Source: Xenococcaceae cyanobacterium MO_167.B27 (GTDB lineage: Bacteria; Cyanobacteriota; Cyanobacteriia; Cyanobacteriales; Xenococcaceae). From it: DNA of 64,000 nucleotides. The position numbers and the translations under genes are program-made. The notes under the pieces are model-generated. The model did no database searches and was not told the DNA's origin. It worked only from the letters and a program-made list of their open reading frames with translations. Below, one piece after another: positions 10,948 to 35,377 of the stretch (position 1 is the first letter of the stretch; each line of letters starts with the position of its first letter). Where the stretch lies: assembly GCA_030065935.1 (NCBI GenBank), contig JASJCP010000008.1, positions 62,001 through 126,000 on the forward strand, written 5' to 3'.

Positions 10948-10965
10948 ATCTCACAACTTCCTCAA
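10948..10965 (-). promoter_or_regulatory. Direct-repeat motif upstream of the phosphoribosyltransferase gene
   Basis: Read on the minus strand it is TTGAGGA-N4-GTGAGAT, two heptamers with an 11-bp period. It ends 46 bp before the ATG at 11012. The same element occurs upstream of four other genes in the window. Confidence 0.5.
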
Positions 10966-11011
10966 ACTTACGATCTATGATTCAACCAAGTAGATTGAGG
11001 CGGGTAAAACC

Positions 11012-11701
11012 ATGAAAGCAGTCTTGCCCAATAGGAGAGAAGCAGGTCAAAGATTAGCAGCCAAACTTAGTGCTTACGTGAATCATCCCCAAGCAATAGT
11101 TTTGGGACTACCTCGTGGTGGCGTGCCAGTGGCTTATGAAATTGCTAGGAGTTTGAATCTTCCTTTAGATGTCTGTCTGGTCAAAAAAATCGGTCTGCCA
11201 CAAAATCCAGAAATAGCAGTAGGTGCAGTCGCGGAAGATGCTCTACTACACGACTATAGTGGCAACATCACTATTGTTGATGAAAATATGGCTCAAATTC
11301 ACAGAGTCGCCCTAGAACAAATTAAGGCGATCGCTGCTAGAGCCAAAGCGGAACTCAGGTGGCGCGATCGCTGTTATCGTCACTGTCGCCCGATGGTACG
11401 AATTCGCGATAGCATTGTGATTCTGGTGGATGATGGCATAGCTACAGGATTGACTATGCACGCTGCGCTAACAGTTTTACAGCAACACGAACCCGAAAAA
11501 ATTATTATCGCCACTCCAGTTGCATCTTTATCTGCGATCAAACATTTGAAAACTCAAGCAGACGATATCACTTGTTTGATTACACCAGAGCATTTTAATG
11601 CAGTGGGCTTCTGGTACGAAGATTTTACCCAAATAACCGACGGAGAAGTGTGCGATCTACTGTCTATTGAGACTCATATGGAGTCGGGAGTTAGGAGTTA
11701 A
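11012..11701 (+). CDS. Phosphoribosyltransferase family protein
   Basis: The 229-residue protein has the type I phosphoribosyltransferase fold. It shows GLPRGGVPVAYEIA near the N-terminus and the PRPP-binding loop VILVDDGIATG at 136-146. Such stand-alone proteins often sit in stress clusters with universal stress proteins, dehydrogenases and proteases; their substrate is usually unknown. A GAGG ribosome-binding site precedes the ATG. ftsH follows on the same strand after 150 bp, and the shared direct-repeat motif lies upstream. Confidence 0.8.
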   Translation: MKAVLPNRREAGQRLAAKLSAYVNHPQAIVLGLPRGGVPVAYEIARSLNLPLDVCLVKKIGLPQNPEIAVGAVAEDALLHDYSGNITIVDENMAQIHRVALEQIKAIAARAKAELRWRDRCYRHCRPMVRIRDSIVILVDDGIATGLTMHAALTVLQQHEPEKIIIATPVASLSAIKHLKTQADDITCLITPEHFNAVGFWYEDFTQITDGEVCDLLSIETHMESGVRS

Positions 11702-11851
11702 ACTGAGTCCAGTTCGAGTAGGGTCGTTTTGAGGTAGGTAAGAGGTAGCAGTGAAGCGGGGATTGGGGATCGTAACTTGCTACTTGTAGGGCGCAAGCCT
11801 TGCGCGCCGCCACCCGCTACTTTGATTATTAGTCATCTAGGAGTGTTATAT

Positions 11852-13801
11852 ATGCCCAAACGCCAAAATCCAACTCGCAAATCAGAATCGAATCAATTGG
11901 AATCGATTTTAATTGTGACTTTGGTATTCTTAATTTTATTGAGTTTATTTTTGCCTCCAGCAAAAGTACCACAGTCTCAGCCCTATAGTAAATTTATTGA
12001 CTTAGTAGAAAGCGATAAAGTTGAGAGGGTTATTATTGGCTCGAATCAGATTCAATACAGTCTCAAATCAAAAGTATTTGAAGACGAATCAGAGCAGATT
12101 TTTACTACAGTGCCAGTGACTCAGGATACGGAGTTACCAAAGATTTTGCGTAAGCATCAGGTAGAATTTTCTGCTAATCCTGCAACTAATGGTGATGGGT
12201 TTTGGGGTTTTATCAAAATATTATTTTTCTTGTTTTTAATTGTCAATTTAGCTAGTCTTTTTTTCAGTCGCAATCAAGGGGGGGATAACATCGTAAGTCC
12301 TTTTTCCATTGGTCGTAGCAACGCTCGTATTTACTCCGAAGGCAGCGTTGATGTTACCTTTGATGATGTGGCTGGTGTGGATGAAGCTAAGACAGAACTA
12401 TACGAAATTGTTGATTTTCTACAACATGGGGCTAAATACATTCGCTTGGGAGCAAAAATACCGAAAGGAGTTTTATTAGTAGGACCACCAGGTACAGGTA
12501 AGACTTTATTGGCAAAAGCGATCGCAGGTGAAGCTAAAGTTCCTTTCTTTAGTATCTCTGGTTCGGAATTTATTGAAATGTTCGTTGGGGTTGGTGCTTC
12601 GCGAGTGCGAGATTTATTCGACCGCGCTAAAAAACAAGCTCCTGCTATTGTCTTTATTGACGAATTAGATGCTCTTGGTAAGTCTCGTGCTGCTTCTGGG
12701 AAATTTATGGGAGGAAATGACGAACGAGAACAGACTCTTAATCAACTACTAGCAGAAATGGACGGCTTTGAACCGAATGCAGGAGTAATTCTTCTGGCTG
12801 CTACTAACCGTCCTGAAGTTCTCGATCCTGCTTTATTGCGTCCTGGTCGTTTTGATCGCCGTATTGTGGTAGATCGCCCCGATAAGTCGGGAAGACTGGC
12901 GATTTTGGAAGTACACGCCCGCAATGTAAGATTAGATGAGGATGTGGATTTAGGGAGACTAGCTGCTCGTACTCCAGGCTTTGCTGGTGCAGATTTAGCT
13001 AACTTAATTAATGAAGCAGCACTACTAGCTGCTCGTCAAAACCACACTTCTGTAACTATGGCAGACTTTAATGAAGCTACAGAGAGAATCCTCACAGGAT
13101 TAGAGAAAAAATCCCGAGTACTTAATGAAATAGAAAAGAAAACTGTAGCTCATCATGAAGTCGGTCATGCTATTGTGGGAACTTTAATGCCTGGTACAGA
13201 TATAGTAGAAAAAATATCTATTGTTCCCCGTGGTATTGGGGCATTAGGATATACTTTACAGCTACCAGAAGAAGACCGTTTTTTAATGATTGAAGATGAA
13301 ATTCGTGGTCGTATTGCTACCCTACTTGGGGGACGTGCTGCGGAAGAATTAATCTTTGGTAAGGTATCTACAGGAGCTAGTGACGATATTCAAAAAGCTA
13401 CTGACCTTGCAGAAAGGTTTGTCACTCTCTATGGTATGAGCGATCGCCTAGGACCTATTGCGTTTGAACAAATACAGCAACAGTTTCTCGAAGGCTTTAG
13501 TAATCCTCGCCGTCAGGTAAGTCCTCAGATTGCAGAAGAAATCGATCGCGAAGTTAAATTAGTTATTGATGGCGCACATCAGGTTGCTTTAGAAGTTCTC
13601 CAAGAAAATCAGGAACTATTAACAAAATTAGCTCAAATTCTTTTAGAACAAGAAATTTTAGAAGGTTCACAACTGCGATCTCAACTTAACTTGGCTCGAA
13701 AAACTGTAGCGATCGATGAATGGTTGCAAACAGGAAAATTAACCCAAAATATCTTACTTGCTTCTACTGTCAATAACGGAAAACTATCATCGGCTAATTA
13801 G
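11852..13801 (+). CDS. ftsH: FtsH, membrane-bound AAA+ zinc protease
   Basis: FtsH degrades damaged membrane proteins, in cyanobacteria including photosystem II D1. The 649-residue protein has an N-terminal membrane segment (about 19-35), a periplasmic or lumenal stretch, a second segment near 115-138, the AAA+ domain with Walker A GPPGTGKT (211-218) and Walker B FIDELDA, and the zinc site HEVGH (435-439) with a further ligand near D511. The start was set at the ATG at 11852 because TAGGAG lies just before it; a longer frame from 11777 runs through a repeat and lacks such a site. Cyanobacteria carry several FtsH paralogues; I cannot assign a number. Confidence 0.95.
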
Positions 13802-14370: not shown

Positions 14371-14373
14371 GAA

Positions 14374-14757: not shown

Positions 14758-14792
14758 GCTGTAAAACTATCTCTAAATTCCGATCTATTTGA

Positions 14793-16204: not shown

Positions 16205-16420
16205 TTGACTTCCTCCTCGCCCTCCGCTCCTAAACGTCGCTAAAGAACGAGGATTCCTACTGGAGTTAAACCCCTTCGGTGGGTTGACTCTTCAACAGGT
16301 GTTCCAACGAACTCCCTCCAAGTCCAAGCAAGGCGAGTCCCGCCTCTCTAATGTTTAAACTGCCGACATAATCAGCGTTAGCTGTATAGTTGCAATCTTT
16401 TTGTTGACAGTAGAAAGTAG
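16205..16420 (-). ncRNA. Candidate omega-RNA (reRNA) at the TnpB 3' end
   Basis: In IS200/IS605 elements the guide RNA of TnpB covers the end of the tnpB gene and the right end of the element, with the guide in flanking DNA. The matching interval here would span the tnpB 3' end to about 16205 on the minus strand; guide bases would lie just left of 16205. This follows from known element architecture; I did not fold the RNA. Confidence 0.35.
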
Positions 16421-17471
16421 CTTGAGTTTTTCTATTTTCTGCTGAAATATAGTTACACTTTGGACATTTTCTTGATGTATTTCTAGGATTGACTTGAATT
16501 AGTTGCCCACCACTCCAAGTTAATTTATACTCAAGTTGACGGATAAATTCTCTCCAACCTTGGTCAAGAATTGCCCTATTTAATCCAGACTTTTGTTTAA
16601 CATTTTTCCCTGGATTTTCTACTGTCCCCTTGGCTGATTTACTCATATTGACTATTTTCAAGTCTTCAAGAATTACTATGGCGTGGTTTTGGCTCAGTTC
16701 ACTTGAAATCTTGTGAAGATAATCGTTACGAATATTGGCAATACGGATATGTAGTTTAGTTATTTTAAACTTTAGTCTTTTCCATTTATTAGAAAACTTT
16801 TCTTTTTTAGCTAATTTCTTTTGTAGTTTAGCTAATTTGTTTTTGAGTTTCTTAAATATATTTAATGGTTCATAATATTTTTGATTTGATAGAGTTAAAA
16901 ACCTGACTACTCCCAAATCTGCTCCAATAATGGAACTTGAAGGATGCTTGGGTATTTCTACATCTATTTCAACTTGAATAGATACAAACCAGTGTTGTCC
17001 TTTTTTAGAGACGGTTACATTTTTAGCTTCTCCAATAACATTTTGACTTTTGTAGTATCTAACCCAACCTATTTTTGGGAGAAATATTCTGCCATTATTA
17101 TTATCAATTTTGAATCCCTGTGGATAGCGAAACGAATCTCGTTGTCCTTTCTTTTTGAATTTTGGAAATTGTTTAGGATTAGTTTTGTCAAAAGCTTCTT
17201 TTAATGCTTGAGACAAATTTTTCAATGATTGCTGCAAGGCTTGAGAATGAACTTCTTTCAGAAAAAATAAATCTTCTTGCTTTTTCCACTGGGTCAATTC
17301 TTTAGTCAATCCAGAATAAGATAAACAAGACTGTTTGGCATTCAATCTTTCTTTTTGAAATGCCAAAGCTTTATTCCAAACCAGTCGTGAGCAACCCGCA
17401 AATTGAGACAGTTTTCGGGTTAGAGTCTTGTTGGTCTTGAGTCTAAATTTGTATGTCTTGCGTAAAATCAT
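16266..17471 (-). CDS. tnpB: TnpB, RNA-guided nuclease of the IS605-type element
   Basis: The 401-residue protein has the OrfB/TnpB layout: an N-terminal HTH region, then a RuvC-like core split around a zinc ribbon. The catalytic acids appear intact: D185 in IIGADLGVVRF, E269 in AIVILEDLKIV and D367 in ANADYVGSLNI. The zinc ribbon uses C336, C339, C355 and C360. Members of this family are guided by an RNA from the transposon end and cut at the donor site. The start is the ATG at 17471. Near the last aspartate NADYVG replaces the common ADxNAA pattern. Confidence 0.93.
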   Translation of the reverse strand: MILRKTYKFRLKTNKTLTRKLSQFAGCSRLVWNKALAFQKERLNAKQSCLSYSGLTKELTQWKKQEDLFFLKEVHSQALQQSLKNLSQALKEAFDKTNPKQFPKFKKKGQRDSFRYPQGFKIDNNNGRIFLPKIGWVRYYKSQNVIGEAKNVTVSKKGQHWFVSIQVEIDVEIPKHPSSSIIGADLGVVRFLTLSNQKYYEPLNIFKKLKNKLAKLQKKLAKKEKFSNKWKRLKFKITKLHIRIANIRNDYLHKISSELSQNHAIVILEDLKIVNMSKSAKGTVENPGKNVKQKSGLNRAILDQGWREFIRQLEYKLTWSGGQLIQVNPRNTSRKCPKCNYISAENRKTQATFYCQQKDCNYTANADYVGSLNIREAGLALLGLGGSSLEHLLKSQPTEGV

Positions 17472-18062: not shown

Positions 18063-18812
18063 TCATCCTTTTTCAGAGTTAAACAGACGAGAATATTCCT
18101 CTGAGATGATGAGGTTGCACCCACAAGCAATTTTTCTCAAAGCTACAGAGTTTTGAATGATAATTCTGCCACGACTATAATCAATCAGACTTCTTTGGCG
18201 CAGTTTGTTGGCAATTACAGATAAACTGGAACGTCTTACCCCTAGTAAATCAGAAAGGTTTTCTTGGGTGAGCAACAGTTCTTTTGTGATCAAGCGCTCG
18301 CTAAAAGCTAATAACCAACGAGCTAATCGCTGTTCTAGAGTATGATGACAGCTACAGAAGACATTTTGGGAAATCTGGGTAAATAAAGCTTGGGTGTACA
18401 AGAGGAGTATTCGTTGTAAATTACCACCGCGAGCGAATTCTTGTTTGATTATGTTGCTGGGCAAACTTATAGCAACGCAGTCAGTTTGGACAATGGCAAA
18501 ACTAGGAAGAAAATCACCACCCAAAAAAGCTGCAATACTGACCATTCCTTCATTACTCACTGTCGCAGTTTGGGCGATCAAACCTTCTTCGCTGGTATTT
18601 ACCAGAGAAATTATGCCTCGAATCGGGAAATAGACTTTCTCGATTGGTTCGTCGGGTTGGTGAAGGGTTGTTTTTGCAGGGATCAAAACAGCATTAGAGT
18701 TGGAAAGGAGATTTTGGCGTTCCGATTTTGATAATAAGCATAAAAGCTGATTATTAGTACTAGGAAATTCTCCGCTCCCAAAGTCAGGAGGACGCTGAAT
18801 GGACAATACCAC
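18063..18812 (-). CDS. Crp/Fnr-family transcriptional regulator
   Basis: The 249-residue protein has a cyclic-nucleotide-binding-like beta barrel (about 25-140) and a C-terminal winged helix with LTQENLSDLLGVRRSSLSVI as the DNA-recognition part. It lacks the arginine-containing cAMP pocket of true CRP and the N-terminal cysteine cluster of FNR, like many cyanobacterial members with a CSCHHTLEQRLARWLL stretch. The start is the GTG at 18812, preceded by GGGAGG. It is divergent from the RcaC-like gene. The shared direct-repeat motif lies 77 bp upstream. Confidence 0.88.
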   Translation of the reverse strand: MVLSIQRPPDFGSGEFPSTNNQLLCLLSKSERQNLLSNSNAVLIPAKTTLHQPDEPIEKVYFPIRGIISLVNTSEEGLIAQTATVSNEGMVSIAAFLGGDFLPSFAIVQTDCVAISLPSNIIKQEFARGGNLQRILLLYTQALFTQISQNVFCSCHHTLEQRLARWLLAFSERLITKELLLTQENLSDLLGVRRSSLSVIANKLRQRSLIDYSRGRIIIQNSVALRKIACGCNLIISEEYSRLFNSEKG

Positions 18813-18888: not shown

Positions 18889-18906
18889 TTGAAGAATTTG
18901 TGAGTA
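18889..18906 (+). promoter_or_regulatory. Direct-repeat motif between the Crp-family and RcaC-like genes
   Basis: The plus strand reads TTGAAGA-N4-GTGAGTA, an 11-bp-period direct repeat and the weakest match of the set. Its orientation relative to the Crp-family gene is the same as that of the other copies relative to their genes. It could also serve the divergent regulator at 19041. Confidence 0.4.
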
Positions 18907-19040
18907 ATCTGTTCAATTTACCTCTAATATTAACTTTCGTAAAAGAAATAAATATATCCTTAGAGCCATTACCTAACCCAAACGGGCTGAAAGAATTAAA
19001 ATTGGCTGTACTATTGATTTAGATGGGGTTGAGTCGGCTG

Positions 19041-20849
19041 ATGAGAATATTACTGATAGATGACGATGAAGAGTTAATGGAAATTTTGGCTAGTAAATTA
19101 GTAGAGCAGCATTATGCCGTTGACATTGCCAATACTGGTGAAATGGGCTGGGAATTTATTTTGCTGTTTAATTACGATCTAGTGGTACTAGATTTGATGC
19201 TACCAGACATTGATGGAATTGCTTTATGTCAGCAAATTAGGGCGGAAAGCTACGAAATGCCCATTATGTTGTTGACAGCACGGAATTGCCATAGTGATAA
19301 AGTGAGAGGATTAGACGCGGGTGCTGATGATTATGTAGTTAAACCTTTCAATTTTGAAGAACTAACAGCTAGAATTAGGGCTTTGCTGCGACGAGAAATT
19401 CACGCAGCCTCACCTATACTACATTGGCAAAAACTAAGTCTTGACCCGAAAACTCATGAAGTCAAACATCAAAACCAGCTTTTACCCCTCACTCCCAAAG
19501 AGTATGCTTTGATGGAACTATTGATGCGTCATCCACAACAGGTTTTTAGTCCATCTGCAATTATAGATAGTATCTGGGCAGGAGAAGACCCCCCAGGAGA
19601 AGAGGCGGTGAGAACCCATATTAAAGGCTTGCGTCAGAAACTTCAAGCTGCTGGTATGACTAAAGATACGATTAAAACAGTTTATGGTGTGGGTTATCGT
19701 CTCAAGCCTCTGACCGATACAAATCTTAAACAAGATAGACAAAAGACTAATAACTCTCAAAAAATCGCTGATTCTTGGTCACAATTTAGAGATGTAGCAT
19801 TGCAAAGATTAGCCATTTTAGAAAAATTAGCGATCGCACTTGCGGAAAATAAAGTCACTCAAAAACTACAGACTGAAGCTAAAAGTTCCGCACACAAGCT
19901 AGCAGGTTCCTTAGGTGGTTTTGGGTTTCCTCAAGGTTCAAAAATTGCCAAGCAGATCGAAAACTCTTTAGAAAATGATCTATGTGATCCCTCTGATGTT
20001 AAACAAATTAGGAAACTAATAATCTCTCTCAGTGATGAATTGCAACATCAGCCTTTTGAAGAGAAAGTTAAAGAAGCATTAGGTAACAATATTTCACTTT
20101 TAATTATCGATCACGACCCCCCCCATACCCCACAGCTAGCAACAGAAGCTAGAATCAGGGGGATCACAACCTATACTGCATTAAATTTCAATGAAGCTAG
20201 AGAAATAATCGCTCAACAATTACCTACGGCGGTAGTGCAAACAATTGTGTTTCCTGATGGAAAAGATTTAATCTTTTTGGAACAACTGCATCAACAAATG
20301 CCACAGTTACCAATTGTCATTATTACAGAAGATGCCCAATTATCAGACCGTTTAGAGATAGTCCGCAAAGGAGGTAACTTGATTCTACAATCTCCAGTAG
20401 AACCTAGTACCGTAATTTCCTCTGTTACTGAACTGATACAGAATCAGGGGGCTGCTGCCAAAGTGTTAATCTTAGATGACGATCCACAGGTATTATTATC
20501 CCTGGAAATAGGTCTTAAGCCTTGGGGTTTCCAGCTAACTACTCTTGAGAGTCCACAACAGTTTTGGCAAGTCTTAGAAAAAGTCGAGCCAGATTTATTA
20601 GTATTAGATATAGAAATGCCTGAAATAAACGGTATTGAGTTGTGTCAACTCTTAAGGTGCGATCGCCGTTGGCAAAAGCTACCAGTCTTATTTCTTACCG
20701 TTCATCAAGACGAAAAAACTCAACATCAAGCCTTCGCTATCGGTGCAGACGATTATATCTGCAAACCAGTAGTCGCGGGAGAGTTGGCAAACCGTATAAT
20801 CAATCGCCTACAAAGAAGCCGTTTTTTGAAGTCAGAAGTTACAAGTTAG
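19041..20849 (+). CDS. RcaC-like multidomain response regulator
   Basis: The domains in order are a receiver (about 1-115, phosphoacceptor D51), an OmpR-type winged helix (about 134-226), an HPt-like domain with the histidine in SSAHKLAGSLGGFGF (H285), a degenerate receiver lacking the acceptor aspartate (about 350-465) and a second complete receiver with D523 in LLVLDIEMPEING. Numbers are from the ATG at 19041; an ATG at 19023 adds six residues. RcaC of Fremyella, the light-colour regulator, has receiver, DNA-binding, HPt and receiver domains in this order. RcaC binds a direct repeat with an 11-bp period, like the motif repeated in this window. Function in colour acclimation is not shown. 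Confidence 0.85.
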   Translation: MRILLIDDDEELMEILASKLVEQHYAVDIANTGEMGWEFILLFNYDLVVLDLMLPDIDGIALCQQIRAESYEMPIMLLTARNCHSDKVRGLDAGADDYVVKPFNFEELTARIRALLRREIHAASPILHWQKLSLDPKTHEVKHQNQLLPLTPKEYALMELLMRHPQQVFSPSAIIDSIWAGEDPPGEEAVRTHIKGLRQKLQAAGMTKDTIKTVYGVGYRLKPLTDTNLKQDRQKTNNSQKIADSWSQFRDVALQRLAILEKLAIALAENKVTQKLQTEAKSSAHKLAGSLGGFGFPQGSKIAKQIENSLENDLCDPSDVKQIRKLIISLSDELQHQPFEEKVKEALGNNISLLIIDHDPPHTPQLATEARIRGITTYTALNFNEAREIIAQQLPTAVVQTIVFPDGKDLIFLEQLHQQMPQLPIVIITEDAQLSDRLEIVRKGGNLILQSPVEPSTVISSVTELIQNQGAAAKVLILDDDPQVLLSLEIGLKPWGFQLTTLESPQQFWQVLEKVEPDLLVLDIEMPEINGIELCQLLRCDRRWQKLPVLFLTVHQDEKTQHQAFAIGADDYICKPVVAGELANRIINRLQRSRFLKSEVTS

Positions 20850-21263: not shown

Positions 21264-21274
21264 CTTCTTTAAAG

Positions 21275-21454
21275 TTAAGATACTTCTAACCAATCAAATA
21301 TGTGTTCTAGTTGTTTTTTGTCCAGCAGTCCGTACTGCCAGAGTATTATTGGTAAGGTATAAGGTTCTAAAGTCTGAGTTTTTCGCGCTAGAGAAATCGC
21401 ATCAGCAGATATGCCTAATTCCGAGCGCAGATAATTAATTAGTTTCTCTAACAT
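21275..21454 (-). CDS. DUF2949 family small protein
   Basis: A 59-residue protein beginning MLEKLINYLRSELGIS and ending with LPIILWQYGLLDKKQLEHIF and then DWLE. The pattern of an LWQYGL turn followed by L-E-x-I-F-D-W-L is that of the cyanobacterial DUF2949 family, of unknown function. It is short and easy to miss. It is the first gene of a two-gene unit, with the direct-repeat motif 64 bp upstream. Confidence 0.8.
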   Translation of the reverse strand: MLEKLINYLRSELGISADAISLARKTQTLEPYTLPIILWQYGLLDKKQLEHIFDWLEVS

Positions 21455-25000: not shown

Positions 25001-26053
25001 AAGTCCCTTCAGCGCAGCGAACAACAACTACAATTGATTAGTGATGCTCTGCCAGTTTTAATTGCCTACATAGATAATCAGCAGCGTTACCGTTACAATA
25101 ACCGTACCTACGAAATTTGGTTTGGTAAACCCCGTTCTGCTTTACTAGGAGTTCACATCAAAGAATTATTTGGGGAAGACAACTATCAAAAAATGTTGCC
25201 CTATATCAGGACAGCTTTATCCGGGAAAACCGTTACTTTTGAAATTCAACCTACTAATGAAAGGGGTAATTCTTATTGGATGAATGCTACTTACATTCCT
25301 GATTTTGATTTAGATGGGGAGGTCAAAGGCTTTTTCTCCATGATTGAGGATATTACTGACCGCAAAGAAGTCGAACGGATGAAAAGTGAATTTGTTTCTG
25401 TCGCCAGTCATGAAATGCGAACCCCCCTAACTTCCATTTATGGAGTCATTAAACTACTTTGCGCCGGACGTTTGGGAGAGCTTTCCCCACCAGGAGTAGA
25501 AATGGCAAATATGGCACTGAGAAATAGCGATCGCCTGGTGCGTCTGGTTAACGATATTCTTGATCTTGAACGGATGGAATCAGGAACAGACACAATTGAA
25601 AGACAACAGTGTGACAGTGGGAAGCTGATAAAACAAGCAGCAGAAACTATGGAATCAATGGCTCAGGAGCATCAAATTGTCATCGAAACCAATCCTCAAT
25701 CAATTGAATTCTGGGGAGAGCGCGATCCCATCTTACAAACCCTCACCAATCTACTTAGCAACGCTATTAAGTTTTCTCCTGCTGGCAGTAAAGTCTGGAT
25801 AAGTTGTCAAAAACAAGAGGGAGAAATTCTCTTCGCTGTCCAAGATCGAGGTAGAGGTATTCCCACAGAGAAACTAGAAACTATTTTTGAGCGTTTCCAA
25901 CAAGTAGATGCTTCTGATTCTCGCAAAAAAGGCGGTACTGGTTTGGGTTTAGCCATTTGTCGCCATATTGTCCAGCAACACGGAGGCAAAATTTGGGTAG
26001 AAAGTGTTTATGGTGAGGGTAGCATCTTTTTCTTTACCATTCCCCAGAGTTAA
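22067..26053 (+). CDS. CBS-PAS-GAF hybrid sensor histidine kinase
   Basis: The 1328-residue protein has a CBS pair (about 1-120), three PAS domains (about 137-250, 260-380, 400-515), a GAF domain (about 530-690), three further PAS domains (about 735-850, 860-980, 985-1105), a HisKA domain with H1115 in SVASHEMRTPLTS, and an HATPase with N box, DRGRGIP and GGTGLGLAICRH. The CBS pair may sense adenine nucleotides. The GAF domain has no bilin cysteine. No membrane segment is visible. The start is a TTG at 22067, because the frame has no ATG or GTG between it and an upstream stop and the CBS fold begins there. A single-domain response regulator follows after 44 bp and is the probable partner. Confidence 0.9.
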   Translation: MIKHNPLIVAPHTLLSEAIAMMTPSQPSSLSDCVLVVAASGLIGIITKSDVVRLVATGVDLATTTVEEVMSQPVMTLERSQCQNIELVWSFMQQHSVSYVPVLGDNQEIIGVMVSKSLMQCLGTKEENQRESEPTATELELERFFDITPSILCIAGFDGYFKWINPAFCKILGFTQSELKAEPFINFVHPKDRAATLAEMENLAAGNTTISWENRYRTKDGDYRWLLWTAKAYLAEERIYASAQDITERKTAEQALKDSEARWQLMLREANDGIWDWNVQTNEVFFSRRWKEMLGFAEDEIGNTLEEWSKRVHPDDIGWVTKVMEDHFAQKTPFYISEHRVLCKDGSYKWILDRGQALWDEAGKVIRIIGSYTDISQQQAALRKGKKAEIQLQQERDFSKAVINTVGALVAVLDRQGRIVSFNYTCEQITGYSFEEIKGQQIWEKFIPPAEKAVVRAVFERLLTGQVPNQYTNSWIAKDGSSHLISWSNTALFNAQGVVEFIIATGIDVTEQCQVWNKLENQYQHTKLLAEITRKIRMSIDLEEILQTAVTEVQHLLACDRVLIMEVRCNNIAVPISESILPELPPMLGYELADPLLVGEYLAKYRQGKILTINDLSTAPIAPEIKQLLEQFKIKAQLVVPILSQKELKGLLVAHQCHNLRQWQENEIQVLNQLADQIGVALSQAQLLNNLEELVSERTTELTTTNQLLQAEIAEREQTEADLRENQRKLAGILDNADEAIISINEQQQIQLFNRGAEKIFGYKAQEIVGQRLDILIPETSRPVHCQYINEFGKSVEQARTMAERGGNVYGLRKNGEEFPAEASIAKLPTREGILFTVMLKDITKRQQAEEKLQASQALLAKAEKIAKIGSWEYNLATQQLTWSEELFEILGFTNNTSIPSCQAIFERFHPEDWLLVKNTLQQGHRDGKPWQFNSRWVLPNGTVKYLESRGEPTVDRQGRVFKVWGTIMDISDRVQAEKSLQRSEQQLQLISDALPVLIAYIDNQQRYRYNNRTYEIWFGKPRSALLGVHIKELFGEDNYQKMLPYIRTALSGKTVTFEIQPTNERGNSYWMNATYIPDFDLDGEVKGFFSMIEDITDRKEVERMKSEFVSVASHEMRTPLTSIYGVIKLLCAGRLGELSPPGVEMANMALRNSDRLVRLVNDILDLERMESGTDTIERQQCDSGKLIKQAAETMESMAQEHQIVIETNPQSIEFWGERDPILQTLTNLLSNAIKFSPAGSKVWISCQKQEGEILFAVQDRGRGIPTEKLETIFERFQQVDASDSRKKGGTGLGLAICRHIVQQHGGKIWVESVYGEGSIFFFTIPQS

Positions 26054-26097: not shown

Positions 26098-26481
26098 ATG
26101 AAAAAGAAACGTATTTTATTTATCGACGATGAAGAGGATATTAGAATTTTAGCTAGTTTTTGTCTGGAATTAGAGGCTGGCTGGGAAATGATCACTGCTT
26201 CTAGTGGCAAAGAAGGCATAGAGATCGCAGCATCCCAACAACCAGATGCAATTTTATTAGATGCGATGATGCCAGAAATGGATGGATTAGAAACTCTTGT
26301 CCAACTCCAAAATAATCCCAAAACTAAGCATATTCCCACGATTTTTATTACCGCCAAAGTTCAAGCCAGCGATCGTCGTCGCTTCTACGCTGCTGGTGCT
26401 AAAGGGGTGATCAATAAACCCTTCGATTCTCTAACCTTAGCCAGTCAAATTTCTGGATTTCTCGGCTGGAGTAATCAGTAA
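26098..26481 (+). CDS. Single-domain response regulator next to the kinase
   Basis: The 127-residue receiver has D10/D11, phosphoacceptor D55 in ILLDAMMPEMDGL, T in FITAKV and K in VINKPFD. Position and strand make it the likely phosphate acceptor of the large kinase. Its layout is that of RcaF, the shuttle of the RcaE-RcaF-RcaC pathway, and an RcaC-like protein with an HPt domain is encoded 5 kb upstream. A TTG at 26095 is an alternative start. Confidence 0.88.
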   Translation: MKKKRILFIDDEEDIRILASFCLELEAGWEMITASSGKEGIEIAASQQPDAILLDAMMPEMDGLETLVQLQNNPKTKHIPTIFITAKVQASDRRRFYAAGAKGVINKPFDSLTLASQISGFLGWSNQ

Positions 26482-26570
26482 TCAGTCATCAGTTATCAGT
26501 TATCAGTTATCAGTTATCAGTATTTCTCTCCCCCAATTCCCCAATTCCCCAATTCCCCAATTATTTTAGA
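26473..26570. repeat. Heptamer repeats (ATCAGTT, CCCCAATT)
   Basis: A block of TATCAGT units is followed by a block of CCCCAATT units, in the spacer after the response regulator. Confidence 0.85.
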
Positions 26571-26582: not shown

Positions 26583-26600
26583 CCCTCACATTTTCCTCAA
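26583..26600 (-). promoter_or_regulatory. Direct-repeat motif upstream of the DUF1830 cluster
   Basis: On the minus strand TTGAGGA-N4-GTGAGGG, 11-bp period. It ends 51 bp before the ATG at 26652. An AGATTGAGGC sequence follows about 30 bp downstream here and also after the copy at 10948-10965. Confidence 0.5.
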
Positions 26601-26651: not shown

Positions 26652-26969
26652 ATGATGTCATCCAATTGGCAAGCTGCTACGACCGAACCTATCTCAGAAA
26701 TGCTGTGTTATTACACTAATTCAACTAGTAAAATGCAGCTTATTCGAGTAACCAAAAGTCAGAATTTAGATTTAGAAAAAATTGTCTTTCCCCAACAAAG
26801 ACTTTTATTTGAAGCGATCCCCGAAGGACAATTAGAAATTTACAGCGATCAAGCAGGAAAACAAAGCCTTGTCGAAGTTATTTCCTGTCAGAGTTTGCAA
26901 GTTAATCAAGTTCAGCATAAGCCAACTGTTGTTGAGACTCTTCCTCTATATAGAGAAAAATCCGCTTAA
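26652..26969 (+). CDS. DUF1830 family protein
   Basis: The 105-residue protein contains MLCYYTNSTSKMQLIRVT, then IVFPQQRLLFEAIPEGQLEI, the pattern of the cyanobacterial DUF1830 family, of unknown function. Two ATGs stand side by side at 26652 and 26655, after AACTGAGGA. It heads a run of four small genes on the same strand that ends with the KaiA-like gene. Confidence 0.82.
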   Translation: MMSSNWQAATTEPISEMLCYYTNSTSKMQLIRVTKSQNLDLEKIVFPQQRLLFEAIPEGQLEIYSDQAGKQSLVEVISCQSLQVNQVQHKPTVVETLPLYREKSA

Positions 26970-27563: not shown

Positions 27564-28025
27564 ATGCCTAACAAAATAGAAAAAGATTACACAAATAGGC
27601 AACAATCAAATCTAAATCTTCTCAATTCTAAATTCCAAGAGAGATTGGGATATTTAGGCATTTATTCCCAAAGAAATCATCAACAGTTTTTTAACAATCT
27701 TTCTCCTATAGAACAGCAAAAATTGCTTGAAGAATTTAAAGCAGAATACTATGAAATTCTGACTAATTATTTTAGTGAAGAAACTAAAATTAATTCTGAG
27801 ATTGATCGATTTGTAGAAAAAGCTTTTTTCGTGAATTTACCTCTGGATAAAGTTGTAGAAATTCATATAGAATTGATAGAAGATTTGGGTCGTGAGCTAA
27901 AATTCAAAGGTTTACATTCCGATTTTCTCAGTGATTATCGTTTGACTTTAATTGATGTTATTACTCACCTGGGAGAAATGTATCGGAGTGTAATTAGTAA
28001 AAACTGCGCCGTTTATCATCGTTGA
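27564..28025 (+). CDS. KaiA C-terminal-domain protein (short form)
   Basis: KaiA stimulates autophosphorylation of the circadian clock kinase KaiC. The 153-residue protein matches the KaiA C-terminal domain from about residue 55: AFFVNLPLDKVVEIHIELIE and DYRLTLIDVITHLGEMYRSV are close to clock KaiA. The pseudo-receiver domain of full-length KaiA is absent, as in some filamentous species. The N-terminal 55 residues are unlike the usual linker. No kaiB or kaiC lies in the window, and the neighbours are the DUF1830 and small-protein genes, so it may be a KaiA paralogue. Confidence 0.75.
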   Translation: MPNKIEKDYTNRQQSNLNLLNSKFQERLGYLGIYSQRNHQQFFNNLSPIEQQKLLEEFKAEYYEILTNYFSEETKINSEIDRFVEKAFFVNLPLDKVVEIHIELIEDLGRELKFKGLHSDFLSDYRLTLIDVITHLGEMYRSVISKNCAVYHR

Positions 28026-29022: not shown

Positions 29023-29586
29023 TCAAGAATTAGGGGTCAGTTCTAAGCTTTGTGATGAAGATTGTCGCTTCTTAGATTGGATGGGAGTCTGAACCAGTAA
29101 AACTGAGCAAGGAGCATGATGAACGACATAGTTGCTGACACTACCTAAAAATACCTCTTTCAAACCTGAATATCCCCTTCTGCCAATAAAAATCACATCC
29201 GCGTTGCAGGATTTAGCGAAGTCACAGATAGTAGAACTAGGATGACCACTGATTTGGCTAAATTCAGTTTCTACTCCTGCTGCACGTGCGTCCTTAGCAA
29301 AAGAACGTAATATCTTTAGTCCTTCTTCCTCAAAAGCTTTCCATTGCTTGTGATACGTTTCGTTAGCTAAATGACTGATTTGAGGATCGAGGTGCATATA
29401 GTGATCGCCGATAGTAGGATAAAAAGTAGGATAAACAGACATTATGGGACTGTCTTCTTCTTCTCCCGATAAAACGTGCAGTAATATTAAATTACCCCCC
29501 ATAGCTTTAGCTAAGAATAAAGCTTCCTCAAACACTTTTCTATTTGCCGTTGAGCGATCAATCGCTACCAGAATTTTGTTAAACAT
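29023..29586 (-). CDS. Universal stress protein, copy 2
   Basis: The 187-residue protein has the UspA fold: start MFNKILVAIDRS and the ATP-binding pattern GRRGYSGLKEVFLGS (G-2x-G-9x-G-S), followed by HHAPCSVLLVQ. It is 43 bp downstream of a second family member on the same strand. The central insert HYMHLDPQISHLANETYHKQ is seen in a group of longer cyanobacterial members. It probably helps survival under stress; direct function is unknown. Confidence 0.9.
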   Translation of the reverse strand: MFNKILVAIDRSTANRKVFEEALFLAKAMGGNLILLHVLSGEEEDSPIMSVYPTFYPTIGDHYMHLDPQISHLANETYHKQWKAFEEEGLKILRSFAKDARAAGVETEFSQISGHPSSTICDFAKSCNADVIFIGRRGYSGLKEVFLGSVSNYVVHHAPCSVLLVQTPIQSKKRQSSSQSLELTPNS

Positions 29587-29629: not shown

Positions 29630-30160
29630 TTAGTTGCTATTTGCTACTTTTTCTTCAGAGATAATAGAATCTAAATTTGTTTCATTGTCAATCTCAGTAC
29701 GCACAATTAAAACCGAACAGGGTGCATGATGAGTCACATAGTTACTGACACTACCAAGAAACATCTCTTTAAGACCTTTTAATCCGCGACTTCCCACTAT
29801 AATTAAATCAGCTTCCCAAGTGCTTGCTAGTTGGCAAATTGTCCGCCCTGGGTTTCCAGTTAATTGAGTATATTCTGTTTCTATTCCTGCTTCTGTAGCT
29901 TTGTCAGTTAGATGTTGTAAGAAATTTAGTCCCAATTGTTTATGCTCTGATAGTTTCTTCTGATATATCTCGTAATCGTTATCGTCTAACATCGGATAGT
30001 AAGAATAGGTAGGTAACACGGGATAACCTGCTTCATCTTCTGATACAACGTGCAGCAACATTAAGGTTGCATCGGTAGTTTTAGCTAAAGATACTGCTGA
30101 ATCAAAGACGGATTTATTTCTTTCGGAATGATCTACCGCTACTAGGATTTTACTAATCAT
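29630..30160 (-). CDS. Universal stress protein, copy 1
   Basis: The 176-residue UspA-type protein starts MISKILVAVDHS and has the nucleotide-binding pattern GSRGLKGLKEMFLGS. It is similar to copy 2 over the whole length, indicating an old tandem duplication. It lies between copy 2 and ppsA on the same strand, but repeat DNA separates it from ppsA. Confidence 0.9.
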   Translation of the reverse strand: MISKILVAVDHSERNKSVFDSAVSLAKTTDATLMLLHVVSEDEAGYPVLPTYSYYPMLDDNDYEIYQKKLSEHKQLGLNFLQHLTDKATEAGIETEYTQLTGNPGRTICQLASTWEADLIIVGSRGLKGLKEMFLGSVSNYVTHHAPCSVLIVRTEIDNETNLDSIISEEKVANSN

Positions 30161-30174
30161 GGGGATTACCTCTT

Positions 30175-30357: not shown

Positions 30358-32868
30358 TCACTGGGTGTTTCCTTGCTTTTCTACCTCCGCTACTTTGAGT
30401 TTGGTTTTCAAGACTGAGTCGGGATTGAGACTGATGGAGTTGATTCGGAGCTGTACTAAAAACTCGGCAAATTCTGGATAGTCGCTGGGTGCTTGACCAC
30501 AGATGCCAATTTTGCGATTGTTTTGTTGGGCTTTGGCGATCGCAATTTGTACCATAGTTTTAACTGCATTATTGCGTTCGTCGAATAGATGGGCAACTAA
30601 GGAAGAATCGCGATCAAGTCCTAAAGTTAATTGTGTTAGGTCATTTGAACCAATGGAGAAGCCATCAAAATATTCACTGAATTGGTCTGCTAGCAGGACA
30701 TTACTAGGAAGTTCGCACATAATATATACTTGCAAACCATTTTTGCCCCTGACTAAGCCGTATTTTGCCATTTCCCCTAATACTTTTCTTCCTTCATCGG
30801 GAGTGCGACAGAAAGGAATCATCGGGATGACATTAGTTAAGCCCATTGCGTCTCGAACTCGTTTAAATGCCTGACATTCCATACCAAAGGCTTCCCTATA
30901 CTGAGGATCGTAATAGCGACTTGCACCCCTCCAGCCCAACATGGGGTTTTCTTCGTTTGGTTCAAACTGTTTACCACCTAAAAGATTGGCATATTCATTA
31001 CTCTTGAAGTCAGACATCCGCACGATAACAGGTTTGGGGTAGAATGCTGCTGCAATGGTAGCAATGCCTCTAGCTAGCTTATCAACAAAGAAATCGGGTT
31101 TATGTTGATAATCACTTGTAAGTCTGGCAATAGCTATTTTTTCCGCAACATCTTTTAATTCGTCAAACTTGAGTAAAGCTAGAGGATGAACTTTGATGTT
31201 ATTGGCAATAATAAACTCTAACCTTGCCAAGCCTACACCATCGGAGGGTAAAGCTGATAAACTAAAAGCCTCTTCGGGATTACCCACATTCATTAAAATT
31301 TGGGTTTTAGTTTGGGGTAAATTATCTAACTGAGTTTCTTCGACGCTAAAAGGAATCATACCAGCATACACTTTGCCTTGTTCCCCTTCAGCGCAAGATA
31401 CAGTAACCTCTTGTCCATTTTTGATGTCTTTGGTAGCATCACCACAGCCGACGATGGCAGGTATTCCCATTTCACGGGCAATAATTGCTGCATGGCAAGT
31501 TCTACCACCCTGGTTAGTAACAATGGCGCTGGCTTTTTTCATAATGGGTTCCCAGTCAGGATCGGTTTTATTGGTAACTAACACTTCTCCTGGTTGGAAT
31601 TTTTCAATCTCGCTTACATTCAAGATGACTCTGGCTACACCAGCACCAATTTTTTCACCAACTGCTCTACCTGTGGTTAATATATCCCCTGTTGCATCTA
31701 ATTTATAGGTCTGTAATATATTGTTGGCTTTCTGAGATTGTACGGTTTCGGGGCGGGCTTGGACGATAAATAATTCCCCTGTAATGCCGTCTTTTGCCCA
31801 TTCAATATCCATTGGGGTATAGACATCTCGTATCTTAGAGTAGTGTTCTTCAATCTCACAAGCCCACTTGGCTAATTGCAGAATTTCCTCATCGTTAATG
31901 GCATATTGATTTCTTTCCGAGGGGGATGTGGGGACATTTTTAGTTAGTTTACTACCGCCTAGATCGTAAATCATCTTGACTTCTTTGCTACCAAGACGTT
32001 TATCTAAGATTGGGCGATAGCCTTGAGTGAGAGTCGGTTTAAATACAACATATTCATCGGGGTTAACCGCACCCTGAACCACGTTTTCACCCAAACCATA
32101 AGCAGCAGTAATTAAAGCTGCATCTTTAAAACCTGTTTCCGTATCAATAGAAAACATCACCCCAGAAGTAGCTAAATCAGAACGCACCATCTTTTGTACG
32201 CCAACAGAAAGAGCTACATTAAAGTGGTCGAAGCCTCTTTGAGTACGATAGGAAATAGCGCGATCTGTAAACAGGGATGCAAAGCATTTATGACAAGCTT
32301 CAAGAACACATTGAACACCGTGAACGTTGAGATAGGTTTCCTGTTGTCCCGCAAAACTCGCGTCTGGTAAATCTTCCGCAGTTGCCGAGGAACGAACTGC
32401 TACATCCACGTTATAACTATATTTCTCACATTGTTCTCTTGCTTCCCCTTCAAAGCGATCGCAATCTTCCGCCTCAACACTATATCGCTGGCAAAGTTGA
32501 CTGTAAGCAGATGCGATCGCTGTTTCTAGTTCTTCAGGAAAAGGAGTATTCAGAATCAACGCCCTAGCTTGCCTACCCCGTATCTTTAAGTTATTAACAT
32601 CTTCTACATCGAGATCGGCAAACAGTTGACGTAGTTTACTTTCTAGTCCTGCCTGTTGGATAAAATAACGATAAGCGTAAGCAGTAGTAGCAAAACCTCC
32701 TGGTACATTAATTCCTTTAGGTGTTAACTGTTGGATCATTTCTCCTAGAGAAGCATTTTTACCACCTACTAGGGAAACGTCTTCCATTCCCACTTGTTCA
32801 AACCAGAGGACAAAAGCTGGTTGTTTATCTTGCAGAAGTTCTTTTTGACGAGCTGCTATTACTACCAT
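30358..32868 (-). CDS. ppsA: Phosphoenolpyruvate synthase
   Basis: This enzyme makes phosphoenolpyruvate from pyruvate and ATP. The 836-residue protein has the N-terminal ATP-binding part with GGKNASLGEM, the phosphohistidine domain with H459 in GGRTCHAAIIAREMGIPAIV, and a C-terminal PEP-binding barrel with MCELPSNVLLADQF and GSNDLTQLTLGLDRD. The length is close to the E. coli enzyme. The start is the ATG at 32868 after GAGGAAATAGAATTT. The direct-repeat motif lies about 80 bp upstream. In cyanobacteria this enzyme is often stress-linked. Confidence 0.95.
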   Translation of the reverse strand: MVVIAARQKELLQDKQPAFVLWFEQVGMEDVSLVGGKNASLGEMIQQLTPKGINVPGGFATTAYAYRYFIQQAGLESKLRQLFADLDVEDVNNLKIRGRQARALILNTPFPEELETAIASAYSQLCQRYSVEAEDCDRFEGEAREQCEKYSYNVDVAVRSSATAEDLPDASFAGQQETYLNVHGVQCVLEACHKCFASLFTDRAISYRTQRGFDHFNVALSVGVQKMVRSDLATSGVMFSIDTETGFKDAALITAAYGLGENVVQGAVNPDEYVVFKPTLTQGYRPILDKRLGSKEVKMIYDLGGSKLTKNVPTSPSERNQYAINDEEILQLAKWACEIEEHYSKIRDVYTPMDIEWAKDGITGELFIVQARPETVQSQKANNILQTYKLDATGDILTTGRAVGEKIGAGVARVILNVSEIEKFQPGEVLVTNKTDPDWEPIMKKASAIVTNQGGRTCHAAIIAREMGIPAIVGCGDATKDIKNGQEVTVSCAEGEQGKVYAGMIPFSVEETQLDNLPQTKTQILMNVGNPEEAFSLSALPSDGVGLARLEFIIANNIKVHPLALLKFDELKDVAEKIAIARLTSDYQHKPDFFVDKLARGIATIAAAFYPKPVIVRMSDFKSNEYANLLGGKQFEPNEENPMLGWRGASRYYDPQYREAFGMECQAFKRVRDAMGLTNVIPMIPFCRTPDEGRKVLGEMAKYGLVRGKNGLQVYIMCELPSNVLLADQFSEYFDGFSIGSNDLTQLTLGLDRDSSLVAHLFDERNNAVKTMVQIAIAKAQQNNRKIGICGQAPSDYPEFAEFLVQLRINSISLNPDSVLKTKLKVAEVEKQGNTQ

Positions 32869-32946
32869 AAATTCTATTTCCTCGTTTAACTTCTACCTCA
32901 TCGCACCTATGATAAGCAAGTGCTGGTTTGAGGTTGATAATTCCTT

Positions 32947-32980
32947 TGTAAATAAACAATTTGAGGAACTTGTGAGGATA
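32947..32980. repeat. 34-bp direct repeat left of the restriction-modification genes; contains the direct-repeat motif
   Basis: This 34-bp sequence recurs at 35344-35377 with one difference. Inside it is TTGAGGA-N4-GTGAGGA (32961-32978), the best copy of the motif. It is upstream of ppsA (minus strand) and 23 bp before the methyltransferase ATG. Confidence 0.8.
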
Positions 32981-33002
32981 ATAAACAGAAAGTTTCTGTA
33001 TA

Positions 33003-34313
33003 ATGGGTGGTCATGCTATCTCCTCTCTTGATAAGGCTCAACCTACCAGCATTAGTCAAGGACTCTATCTAACCAAGTTCTCAAATGTAGCATCAAAAAC
33101 ACTCTTGAAGGAAGGATATTCGTTGAAGGAGTTTAATAAACCAATCCCACAAGCAAGCCTCAACATTGTTGAGAAGAGTAGAGCTAATCTGTTTTCTTGG
33201 CGTGGTCAGTTTTCACCACAGCTTATTGAAGTTATATTAAACTCATATTGTCTGCCCAACTCAGTCATTCTCGATCCTTTTTTAGGTAGCGGAACTGTTT
33301 TGTTAGAAGCAGGAAATTTCAGGTTTGAGGTATATGGTTTTGAAATCAACCCAGCAGCTTGCATCTTAAGTAGTACTTATGAATTAATAAATAATCCTCA
33401 GCGAAAAAAAATTGTCAGGAAAGTCAGAGAAAAGATAGATCTGATATTCCCTTTCCAAATTCTTGAAAATAATAGTCAAGTACAAAATTTAGCCGAAATT
33501 TTCTGGGAAATCAGGAGAGACTTAGATGAAGAGTCAATCAAAGTATTCGATACTTTAGTCATCCTTCTTGACGTTGCTAATAACGAAATTACTAATCAAT
33601 TTATACAGGCAAAATTTTCTAGCTTGGTGAATGTTATAGAGAAATTTCCCTATTCAGAAAAGCCAATTAGAGTTGGGTTGTCTGATGCTCGCGCTCTACC
33701 AATAAAAGATAAACAAGTGGATTTTGTGGTGACTTCACCGCCATATATCAACGTATTCAATTATCATCAAAACTACCGAAAATCGGCTGAAATTTTAGGA
33801 TGGAACTTATTAAAGATTGCCAAATCAGAAATTGGGTCTAATAGAGCCAACAGAAAAAATCGTTTCTATACAGTAGTGCAATACTGTATAGACATGGCTG
33901 CTACTCTTAAAGAACTTGCCAGAGTAACTAAAACCGATGCTCGAATTGTCTTTATTGTAGGGTATGAATCCAATGTTTTAGGAGTTCCCTTTTACAATGC
34001 TGATATTATTGAAAAAATCGGGGTGAAATCAGGTCTTTTTACCAAAGTCCTGAGACAAAAGAGAGAGTTCAAAAATAAATTTGGAAAAACTATACGAGAA
34101 GACATAATCAACTTTCTAAATCGAGATAGTCAATGTTGTAAAAGTTTACTAGAAAATGTCGCACGAGAGGTTGCATTCGATGCCTTGACCAATGGTCTTT
34201 CCATAGTTGACTCAAAAAATCTTGAATATTTAGAAAGTGCGATTGATAAAGTTCAGGATATTGATGGAACAGTGGTATTAAATAAAAACCACTATATCTA
34301 CCTATCTCGTTAA
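33003..34313 (+). CDS. DNA methyltransferase (N4-cytosine or N6-adenine type)
   Basis: The 436-residue protein has the AdoMet-binding motif ILDPFLGSGTVLLEAG near residue 90 and the amino-methyltransferase motif TSPPY at 244-248. TSPPY is usual in N4-cytosine enzymes and also found in some N6-adenine enzymes. With the nuclease gene 48 bp downstream it forms a probable type II restriction-modification pair. The start is the ATG at 33003; no strong ribosome-binding site is visible. Confidence 0.85.
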   Translation: MGGHAISSLDKAQPTSISQGLYLTKFSNVASKTLLKEGYSLKEFNKPIPQASLNIVEKSRANLFSWRGQFSPQLIEVILNSYCLPNSVILDPFLGSGTVLLEAGNFRFEVYGFEINPAACILSSTYELINNPQRKKIVRKVREKIDLIFPFQILENNSQVQNLAEIFWEIRRDLDEESIKVFDTLVILLDVANNEITNQFIQAKFSSLVNVIEKFPYSEKPIRVGLSDARALPIKDKQVDFVVTSPPYINVFNYHQNYRKSAEILGWNLLKIAKSEIGSNRANRKNRFYTVVQYCIDMAATLKELARVTKTDARIVFIVGYESNVLGVPFYNADIIEKIGVKSGLFTKVLRQKREFKNKFGKTIREDIINFLNRDSQCCKSLLENVAREVAFDALTNGLSIVDSKNLEYLESAIDKVQDIDGTVVLNKNHYIYLSR

Positions 34314-34361
34314 CTTACTCATTTAGCCAATCCTACTCCTCTAGTAAATTCCATTCAATCT

Positions 34362-35273
34362 ATGCCTGAACTTTCTCTTCCTCATTACAAAAAACTGAAA
34401 GCGTGTTTAAACAATCCTCGGCTACCTGAAGCTGATAAAGAAAGACTAGAAGAAGCTATCAGGAAATACCAGGAGTGGATTGCTGCACTTGAAGCAGTTG
34501 AGAGTGGACAAACAGATACAGTAGAGAAAATGGTTGAAGCAACCAATCAGTACAAGCGATTTATTGAACTTGATGTAATATTCGATAGTCCAGAAAATTT
34601 TTTATATCGTCAAAAGGGACAACTAAAGCTAGACAATACAATTTTGGAAGAATTCTTGCCTCAATTAGTTTTTCGTAGTTTGAGAGGAATAGATGATTCT
34701 TTTGAGTTAGGTCCAAGAAAAACGTTCTCAGGACTTAGTTTCCTATCCTCGATTGGAAACCCTGGTCAAGGTGGTGAACCAAGTATTAAATCTAAAGATC
34801 AAGATTTTATCCTTGGTAAAAAGCTATACTTGAAATCATCCTTTGATCCAGAGTTTCAAGATTATAAGCTGATTGAGTCCCATCTTGGATATGTATGTGC
34901 AGAATGCAAGACAAATTTAGACAAAACCATGTTCCAAGAAGCTATAGCAACCAGTAGAGATTTAAAGGTGGCTGTACCTGGATCTTTGTACTTTCTAATA
35001 TGTGAATTTCTTGATATGACACCAGTATCAATAGTTTCGACTCAGATTGATGATGTTTTGATTGTGCGTAAGACTAAACGGATGTCTTCCAATATTAGAC
35101 AAGAATATAGAACACCAGAAGAAAGACGGCTTCGCAGGCAGGAATATATAGACTTTTTAGATTCTTCTAAATACTATTCTGATGTATTTCAAAGGATGAT
35201 TGATAAAATCCAAGCTTTAATAGATGATACAAATCCCTCAATCCAGAAAGTTCTAAATCAGGGTTATTTTTAG
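34362..35273 (+). CDS. Probable type II restriction endonuclease (Bpu10I-like)
   Basis: The 303-residue protein contains a PD-(D/E)XK-like centre: an acidic FDPEFQDYKLIESHLGY stretch and then E181-C-K183 in CAECKTNLDKTMFQEA. The ECKTNLDKTM region recalls the Bpu10I endonuclease family, but this family match is from memory and tentative. It starts with a helical charged region. Its place directly after a DNA methyltransferase supports the role. Confidence 0.7.
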   Translation: MPELSLPHYKKLKACLNNPRLPEADKERLEEAIRKYQEWIAALEAVESGQTDTVEKMVEATNQYKRFIELDVIFDSPENFLYRQKGQLKLDNTILEEFLPQLVFRSLRGIDDSFELGPRKTFSGLSFLSSIGNPGQGGEPSIKSKDQDFILGKKLYLKSSFDPEFQDYKLIESHLGYVCAECKTNLDKTMFQEAIATSRDLKVAVPGSLYFLICEFLDMTPVSIVSTQIDDVLIVRKTKRMSSNIRQEYRTPEERRLRRQEYIDFLDSSKYYSDVFQRMIDKIQALIDDTNPSIQKVLNQGYF

Positions 35274-35343
35274 ATTTTCTCTGATCCATTTGCAATCTAA
35301 CAGATACCCCAATTAATACAGCAGAAGATTTCTGTTATTCATC

Positions 35344-35377
35344 TGTAAATAAATAATTTGAGGAACTTGTGAGGATA
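35344..35377. repeat. 34-bp direct repeat right of the restriction-modification genes
   Basis: It matches 32947-32980 at 33 of 34 positions and again holds TTGAGGA-N4-GTGAGGA (35358-35375). No gene start lies close to this copy: it is between the 3' ends of two convergent genes. Confidence 0.8.

Follow-up and report, generated by a model that had tools for sequence, protein, structure and literature searches.

A direct-repeat promoter box and an RcaC-like response regulator as candidates for a fermentation regulon in a Xenococcaceae cyanobacterium and its relatives

Response regulators of the RcaC type join an OmpR-type winged helix-turn-helix (wHTH) to extra HPt and REC domains, as does the regulator considered here. 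In Fremyella and Synechococcus PCC 7335, as far as the available part of the source goes, RcaC binds a promoter box, the L box, and activates (PMC8256508), much as we propose below. The induction of PFOR and hydrogenase in cyanobacteria has so far been explained in part, through SigE, cyAbrB, LexA and RpaA and in two model strains, to judge from the accessible portions of that literature. Dark microoxic conditions bring a transient induction of nifJ, the dihydroorotate-dehydrogenase gene sll0744 and hoxFUYH in Synechocystis, and the available sections of the same study give TANNNT as the −10 consensus of SigE and name Rre34 as a possible helper at nifJ (PMC11368403). The Lyngbya hox promoter carries LexA and IHF sites, with no repeat mentioned in the accessible part of its description (PMC2674450). 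Here we describe a direct-repeat box found in a 64,000-nucleotide stretch of Xenococcaceae cyanobacterium MO_167.B27 (assembly GCA_030065935.1, contig JASJCP010000008.1, positions 62,001 to 126,000; hereafter the window, whose own coordinates are used throughout). With a probability of roughly 0.78, on our own estimate from the sequence, the repeats would be activator sites at the promoters of a fermentation or low-oxygen regulon, with an RcaC-like protein encoded in the window as its regulator.

A preliminary description of this DNA had written the motif as TTGAGGA-N4-GTGAGGA and listed six copies, and scanning the whole window returns exactly those six as its only matches at up to two mismatches; at up to three there are 14 matches where 5.5 are expected, and none of 100 shuffles gets to 14. 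On the gene strand the box reads TCYTCAC-AANN-TYYTCAA, an 11-bp direct repeat whose half-sites stand about 11 bp apart in column counts over both 19 hand-picked sites and 12 core sites. The excess over chance that was to be expected across the full genome (7.02 Mb in 282 contigs, with the reversed motif as control) is weak for the motif as first written, at 71 matches against 46 reversed (up to two mismatches). It grows with TTGARRANNTTGTGARRA, a better 18-mer form (38 against 9 at up to one mismatch), and becomes strong once a −10 element is included, with 24 sites against 1 at up to two mismatches and 33 against 5 at up to three. At the 12 core sites, which match the 18-mer without mismatch and were picked on the 18-mer alone, TA starts 10 bp downstream of the box in every case and the full SigE-type TANNNT is present in 10; because window copies 32961 and 35358 are duplicates, these represent 11 independent sites. 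The −10 claim is based on them instead of on the score matrix, because the 19 sites that trained the matrix were hand-picked after their flanks had been inspected. Left out of the matrix were window copies 10948, 18889, 26583, 32961 and 35358, loci L040, L041, L044, L047, L048, L049 and L051, and other weak or coding matches in L016-L029, where L025 and L028 repeat sites from L034 and L043. Some loci were picked with a −10 pattern one base shorter in the spacer; the counts use the right spacing.

The sites also lie where promoters are to be expected, as the preliminary description had anticipated: 21 of the 24 own-genome sites are intergenic against 18.6% of random positions, and 18 are promoter-like (no more than 300 bp upstream of a gene in matching orientation) against 7.3%, the gene model being a simple open reading frame (ORF) picker and the random positions coming from stretches around the sites. 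Read from its letters, then, the box is a promoter element with a −10 of its own, an amendment of the motif as first conceived, and its fixed distance to the −10 and the position of its downstream half-site near −35 are those of OmpR/PhoB-class activator sites. A dimer of such a response regulator would occupy the two TYYTCA half-sites 11 bp apart, with the downstream half-site reaching the −35 region and the TANNNT beginning 10 bp past the box; the phosphorylated RcaC-like regulator would act as a class II activator of RNA polymerase, which would use the TANNNT −10, probably carrying a group 2 sigma factor of the SigE type. The same −10 could suggest that the box is a plain promoter of an alternative sigma factor, with a SigE-like −10, an unusual −35 and no dedicated activator, the more so as TANNNT is the form given for SigE and SigE drives hox and nifJ in Synechocystis, according to the available sections of the source (PMC11368403). 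We consider this quite unlikely: two conserved half-sites spaced by 11 bp extend upstream of −35, and one box variant accompanies a helix variant of the response regulator, as shown below. Group 2 sigma factors are, moreover, widespread in cyanobacteria, whereas many genomes of the order lack the box (113 of 243 match at up to two mismatches).

Ten of the 24 own-genome sites precede fermentation or energy genes, by a manual count from family matches. Behind individual boxes lie PFOR; a gene without known identity followed by HoxE and HoxF; two CBS proteins followed by HoxH; HoxU with HoxY; a dihydroorotate-dehydrogenase-like gene with phosphofructokinase; pyruvate kinase; ppsA, with two universal stress proteins behind it; a small heat-shock protein and, after it, an alternate F1 beta subunit; an alternate F1 alpha subunit; and a cDPG-synthetase-like protein (our own reading, without a Pfam match) with carbamate kinase. 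HoxE, HoxU, PFOR, carbamate kinase, phosphofructokinase, phosphoenolpyruvate (PEP) synthase and the two F1 subunits score above their NCBIfam cut-offs. The names HoxF, HoxH, HoxY, pyruvate kinase and small heat-shock protein rely on gene order combined with family matches that are general or below threshold. Pathway knowledge suggests that these ten serve dark fermentation: darkness or anoxia would switch on PFOR, the Hox hydrogenase and the glycolytic and PEP-synthase genes, and with them the alternate F1Fo ATPase, carbamate kinase and the universal stress, CBS and small heat-shock proteins. The clearest theme is fermentation, hydrogenase and energy, rather than the general stress and signalling theme proposed earlier. 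Phycobiliprotein and bilin genes are absent from the annotated targets, some targets being without a family match.

Conservation extends this picture to other genomes, where the motif was expected in front of orthologues and is indeed found there. Within the family, nine of ten other genomes with a close ppsA orthologue (at least 81% identity) and available upstream DNA carry a site within about 200 bp upstream, G227 being the exception and G086 having a TCATAA form of the box (score only 20.4); among lower-identity PEP-synthase paralogues (58-79%) with available upstream DNA one of 12 (L275) does. PFOR was followed more widely, in 60 matched genes taken mostly by rank order with near-relatives of those taken skipped, G161 and G197 being added with box-rich genomes in mind and G161 after its box had been seen. 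Sixteen of the 60 upstream regions have a site, scoring 22.9-43.4; all other regions stay at or below 9.5, and scores of the reversed control do not pass 7.8. The top-scoring site is divergent in G191 and G077, and a same-strand site before PFOR is present there as well. Possession of a PFOR site tracks box wealth, at 14 of 19 genomes with at least four other sites against 2 of 41. Twenty loci of families f33, f18 and f16, selected because they bear boxes, contain 31 boxes, of which 18 have genes for PFOR, Hox, hydrogenase-maturation protease/HypA or universal stress proteins within 3.5 kb downstream (manual count). All 18 genomes of the own family hold 4 to 43 matches at up to two mismatches, and class-wide 51 of 194 genomes (own included) match at up to one mismatch, with reversed matches listed in none.

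For the protein that binds the box, sequence points most likely to the RcaC-like response regulator at 19023-20849 on the forward strand. Pfam finds in it three Response_reg stretches, Trans_reg_C (PF00486) and Hpt, arranged as the REC, OmpR-type wHTH, HPt and further REC of the RcaC family, and proteins from Hyella patelloides and from Xenococcaceae metagenome-assembled genomes share 72-77% identity with it, which makes the organism a Pleurocapsa-type cyanobacterium. A box also stands directly before the regulator start in G227, G019 and G175, and the 18889 copy may mediate autoregulation here. When RcaC-like homologues were ranked by protein score alone (ranks 1-61 after the own gene, G038 excepted, up to 8 kb each side), 27 of 60 neighbourhoods contained 44 boxes, against 0 for the reversed control. 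In a 66-row tree of the REC-wHTH part, where the window and motif-chosen loci make up four rows, presence of a TCACA box is clustered, requiring 12 changes against a shuffled mean of 20.3 with 0 of 500 shuffles as low; the box occurs in more than one clade of this tree, whose deep forks are open. With those four rows excluded, a TCACAA box lies within 9.5 kb of 16 of 25 regulators with the recognition helix AVRTH and of 7 of 37 others (p 4.7e-4). All three PTEGAVRTHIKT paralogues (L179, L180, L183) have TCATAA boxes nearby, one of them together with a TCACAA box, and in G086 the TCATAA ppsA box is found about 12 kb from a PTEGAVRTHIKT paralogue on the same contig. The regulon had been put forward at the outset as undescribed and as controlled by an OmpR/PhoB-class regulator, the RcaC-like protein being a candidate, and the genome-wide, cross-genome and neighbourhood data support this.

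It is conceivable that another OmpR-class regulator, such as RpaA, RpaB or RppA, binds the box and that the RcaC-like gene is just one of its targets. The genome encodes 19 wHTH regulators, several genomes have boxes near the start of their RcaC-like genes, and RpaA is listed as a regulator of hoxUYHW-hypAB in PCC 7942 in the accessible part of the source (PMC13421787). The REC-wHTH part (residues 7-228) passes the NCBIfam RppA equivalog cut-off, at 275.7 against 250 bits, the RcaC-like protein being a multi-domain protein of 608 aa, unlike the 229-position RppA model. Against such a binder stands the clustering of TCATAA boxes around PTEGAVRTHIKT paralogues in three of three cases, and we judge it unlikely. 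Rre1, a NarL-type regulator, with Hik34 had been a first guess and was dropped; no motif for it turned up in the literature search.

The RcaC-like regulator would be phosphorylated by a CBS/PAS/GAF histidine kinase encoded two genes away on the same strand (22067-26053; Pfam; H-box SHEMRTP). Six proteins of other families, three of which come from motif-chosen loci, combine an RcaC-like part with a PAS-HisKA-HATPase part that resembles this kinase, and these fusions suggest that kinase and regulator are paired.

Several results weigh against the proposed regulon and its regulator. Fourteen of the 24 own sites, and 13 of the 31 boxes in the f33, f18 and f16 loci, precede genes that are unknown or not obviously fermentative; in this genome the 14 comprise a sigma-70 factor (its ORF truncated at the contig end), a phosphoribosyltransferase, DJ-1/PfpI, DUF4383, gamma-glutamyltranspeptidase (as second gene), L,D-transpeptidase, UPF0182, a LigT-type gene, the Crp-like and DUF2949 genes and genes without a family match, small ORFs included, with nothing behind copy 35358. 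Five site-rich genomes (G091, G120, G227, G238, G111) are without a PFOR site, and the order-wide background amounts to 37 reversed matches in 33 of 243 genomes (up to two mismatches, counted by eye). Nine of the 25 AVRTH regulators lack a TCACAA site within 9.5 kb, one is present within that distance of 7 of 37 others, and p values overstate such differences because the proteins are related. TCAAAA is not a clean variant, for of the four PQEEAVSTQIKG proteins three lie near TCAAAA boxes and three near TCACAA boxes. RcaC-like paralogues are numerous, 210 of 243 genomes matching at E <= 1e-60; because paralogues of 41-46% identity occur in most genomes, mere presence is unusable for co-occurrence, and adjacency and helix type were therefore used. 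With such numerous paralogues, and PAS histidine kinases that are widely alike, the acting pair in this strain is a matter of inference.

Within the window, the five copies near genes share one orientation, with the TTGAGGA strand opposite to the gene, and their distances fall inside the 46 to 93 bp before the start given originally. The copy at 10948-10965 (forward strand, reading ATCTCACAACTTCCTCAA; matrix score 20.9) lies 46 bp upstream of a phosphoribosyltransferase gene (11012-11701, forward, PF00156) that is followed by an FtsH protease gene (PF01434, 11777-13801); in G227 (L053) a box with a flank resembling this copy scores 25.0. At 26583-26600 (forward, score 23.1) a further weak copy precedes by 51 bp a DUF1830 gene (26652-26969, forward, Pfam), which is followed by a gene for a protein with a KaiA C-terminal domain (27564-28025). 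These two are the weakest of the six, because they are absent even at up to three mismatches when the −10 is included. That ranking revises the earlier verdict on the copy at 18889-18906 (reverse strand), which does have a weak core but possesses a −10. AGATTGAGGC, which had been noted after two copies, does occur twice, at 10992 and 26624, directly upstream of the start codon; it is not counted in the box, and a wider motif containing it was dropped, because it adjoins the start codon and is poorly kept in relatives. The top-scoring copy of the window (40.4) is that at 21519-21536 (reverse), 64 bp upstream of a DUF2949 gene (21275-21454, reverse, PF11165) with the ORF 20862-21293 next on the same strand; DUF2949 homologues in L053, L055 and L057 are likewise preceded by a box.

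The 18889 copy stands between the divergent genes for the RcaC-like regulator and a Crp-like regulator (18063-18812, reverse, Pfam), 76 bp upstream of the latter, a possible target. This placement might suggest that a Crp-family protein encoded in the window binds the box itself. Sites of Crp and NtcA are palindromes like GTAN8TAC or TGTGA-N6-TCACA, whereas the box is a direct repeat without a palindrome, and neither Crp protein has a homologue at 1e-6 in L053-L058 and L114-L133; for these reasons such a binder is very improbable.

The copy at 32961-32978 (reverse) lies 92 bp upstream of ppsA (30358-32868), which is followed on the same strand by universal stress protein genes at 29630-30160 and 29023-29586 (family matches), and boxes are found before ppsA orthologues too. 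A box identical to it at 35358-35375 (reverse), counted earlier as a sixth copy, is present but has no same-strand gene start close downstream. Between the two lie genes for a DNA methylase and a Bpu10I-type endonuclease (33003-35273), bracketed by near-repeats (32940-32980 and 35337-35377) that hold the boxes and are identical at 38 of 41 bp. This arrangement suggests that the restriction-modification (R-M) genes were inserted into the ppsA promoter with a long target duplication (32940-35377), and because insertion of R-M genes with a long target duplication is a described event, as the available part of the source indicates, the 35358 copy is probably its by-product. Two copies flanking an R-M cassette, together with own-genome matches at C39:108202 and C163:24 that share near-identical flanks, could also be taken as signs of a dispersed repeat or a relic of a mobile element that is intergenic by chance. 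This is scarcely credible for a sequence that precedes orthologous PFOR and ppsA genes, whose orientation and −10 are fixed and whose flanks at other sites differ outside the box and −10.

Some further observations stand apart from the argument. In the draft assembly the HoxH gene lies behind two CBS-domain genes (L036:907-3757) on a contig distinct from those of HoxEF and HoxUY, each of the three places carrying its own box, and a second PFOR copy with three in-frame stops (G000:C39:14450-18094) is probably a pseudogene. In other families (L115, L118, L122, L132) a small gene lies under a box, divergent from PFOR or near Hox genes; that of L115 is weakly similar, below threshold, to BLH/DSP phosphatases, and the resemblance of the four genes to one another is a judgement by eye. 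Just upstream of the DUF1830 box, at about 26460-26560, are short tandem repeats with ggggaatt and ctgataa units, and a lone IS605 OrfB/TnpB-like gene (Cas12f1-like TNB domain) lies at 16266-17471, inside the regulated region.

A wider view may be taken, namely that an ancient two-component fermentation regulon, DosR-like in its logic, exists in many cyanobacterial families, and that duplicated RcaC-like regulators have split their specificity, each helix variant having its own box variant (TCACAA, TCATAA, perhaps TCAAAA). We offer it tentatively, at slightly less than even odds, the helix-to-box reading being held below that mark because the TCAAAA group also has TCACAA boxes nearby. If true, helix and box variants would amount to a readable helix-to-base code, and regulator duplicates with a matching box variant would be material for studying how specificity diverges. 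A specific box with a named regulator-kinase pair could make the fermentation regulon readable from genomes across the class, and the RcaC-like regulator is a directly testable candidate activator for hydrogen production. The letters of the box, as six 16-mers, were not found in the literature searched, nor was a description of this regulon found there by topic, most subscription papers and bioRxiv preprints falling outside that literature.

Set beside the known systems, the locus differs from RcaC and its L box in targets and kinase, the comparison being by targets, kinase and architecture: genes of fermentation and hydrogenase stand among the annotated targets in place of pcyA, cpc2 and pebAB, and the neighbouring kinase has CBS/PAS/GAF domains or is fused to the response regulator. 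The Pho box of PhoB/SphR resembles ours as an 11-bp direct repeat that overlaps −35 and is bound by a wHTH regulator, but its half-site letters and targets differ, and the window regulator falls below the NCBIfam PhoB equivalog cut-off (280.1 against 296.2 bits). DosR is a NarL/LuxR-type regulator with a GerE-type helix-turn-helix, and its regulon members include Hsp20, CBS and phosphofructokinase proteins. The DosR dormancy regulon of mycobacteria is, in the accessible part of its description, a hypoxia regulon under two-component control and counts several universal stress proteins among its members, as proposed here; the window regulator has an OmpR-type wHTH (PF00486) and not the GerE type, and the likeness is at most convergent. 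RpaA, a clock output regulator, has two domains and lacks the HPt and additional REC domains of the window regulator, whose REC-wHTH part nonetheless has the RpaA structure 9dvt as its closest solved relative by sequence. Like the proposed regulator, RpaA is of the OmpR class and has hydrogenase genes, hoxUYHW-hypAB, listed for it in Synechococcus elongatus PCC 7942, in the part of the source available (PMC13421787). Control by cyAbrB2, SigE and LexA in Synechocystis 6803 shares the core targets nifJ, the dihydroorotate-dehydrogenase-like gene and hoxFUYH, and TANNNT for SigE, whereas a direct-repeat box and a dedicated two-component activator go unmentioned in the available sections of that study (PMC11368403). 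Two-component activators acting on direct repeats are already known; what appears to be new is a class-wide, RcaC-like fermentation regulon with a paralogue-linked box variant.

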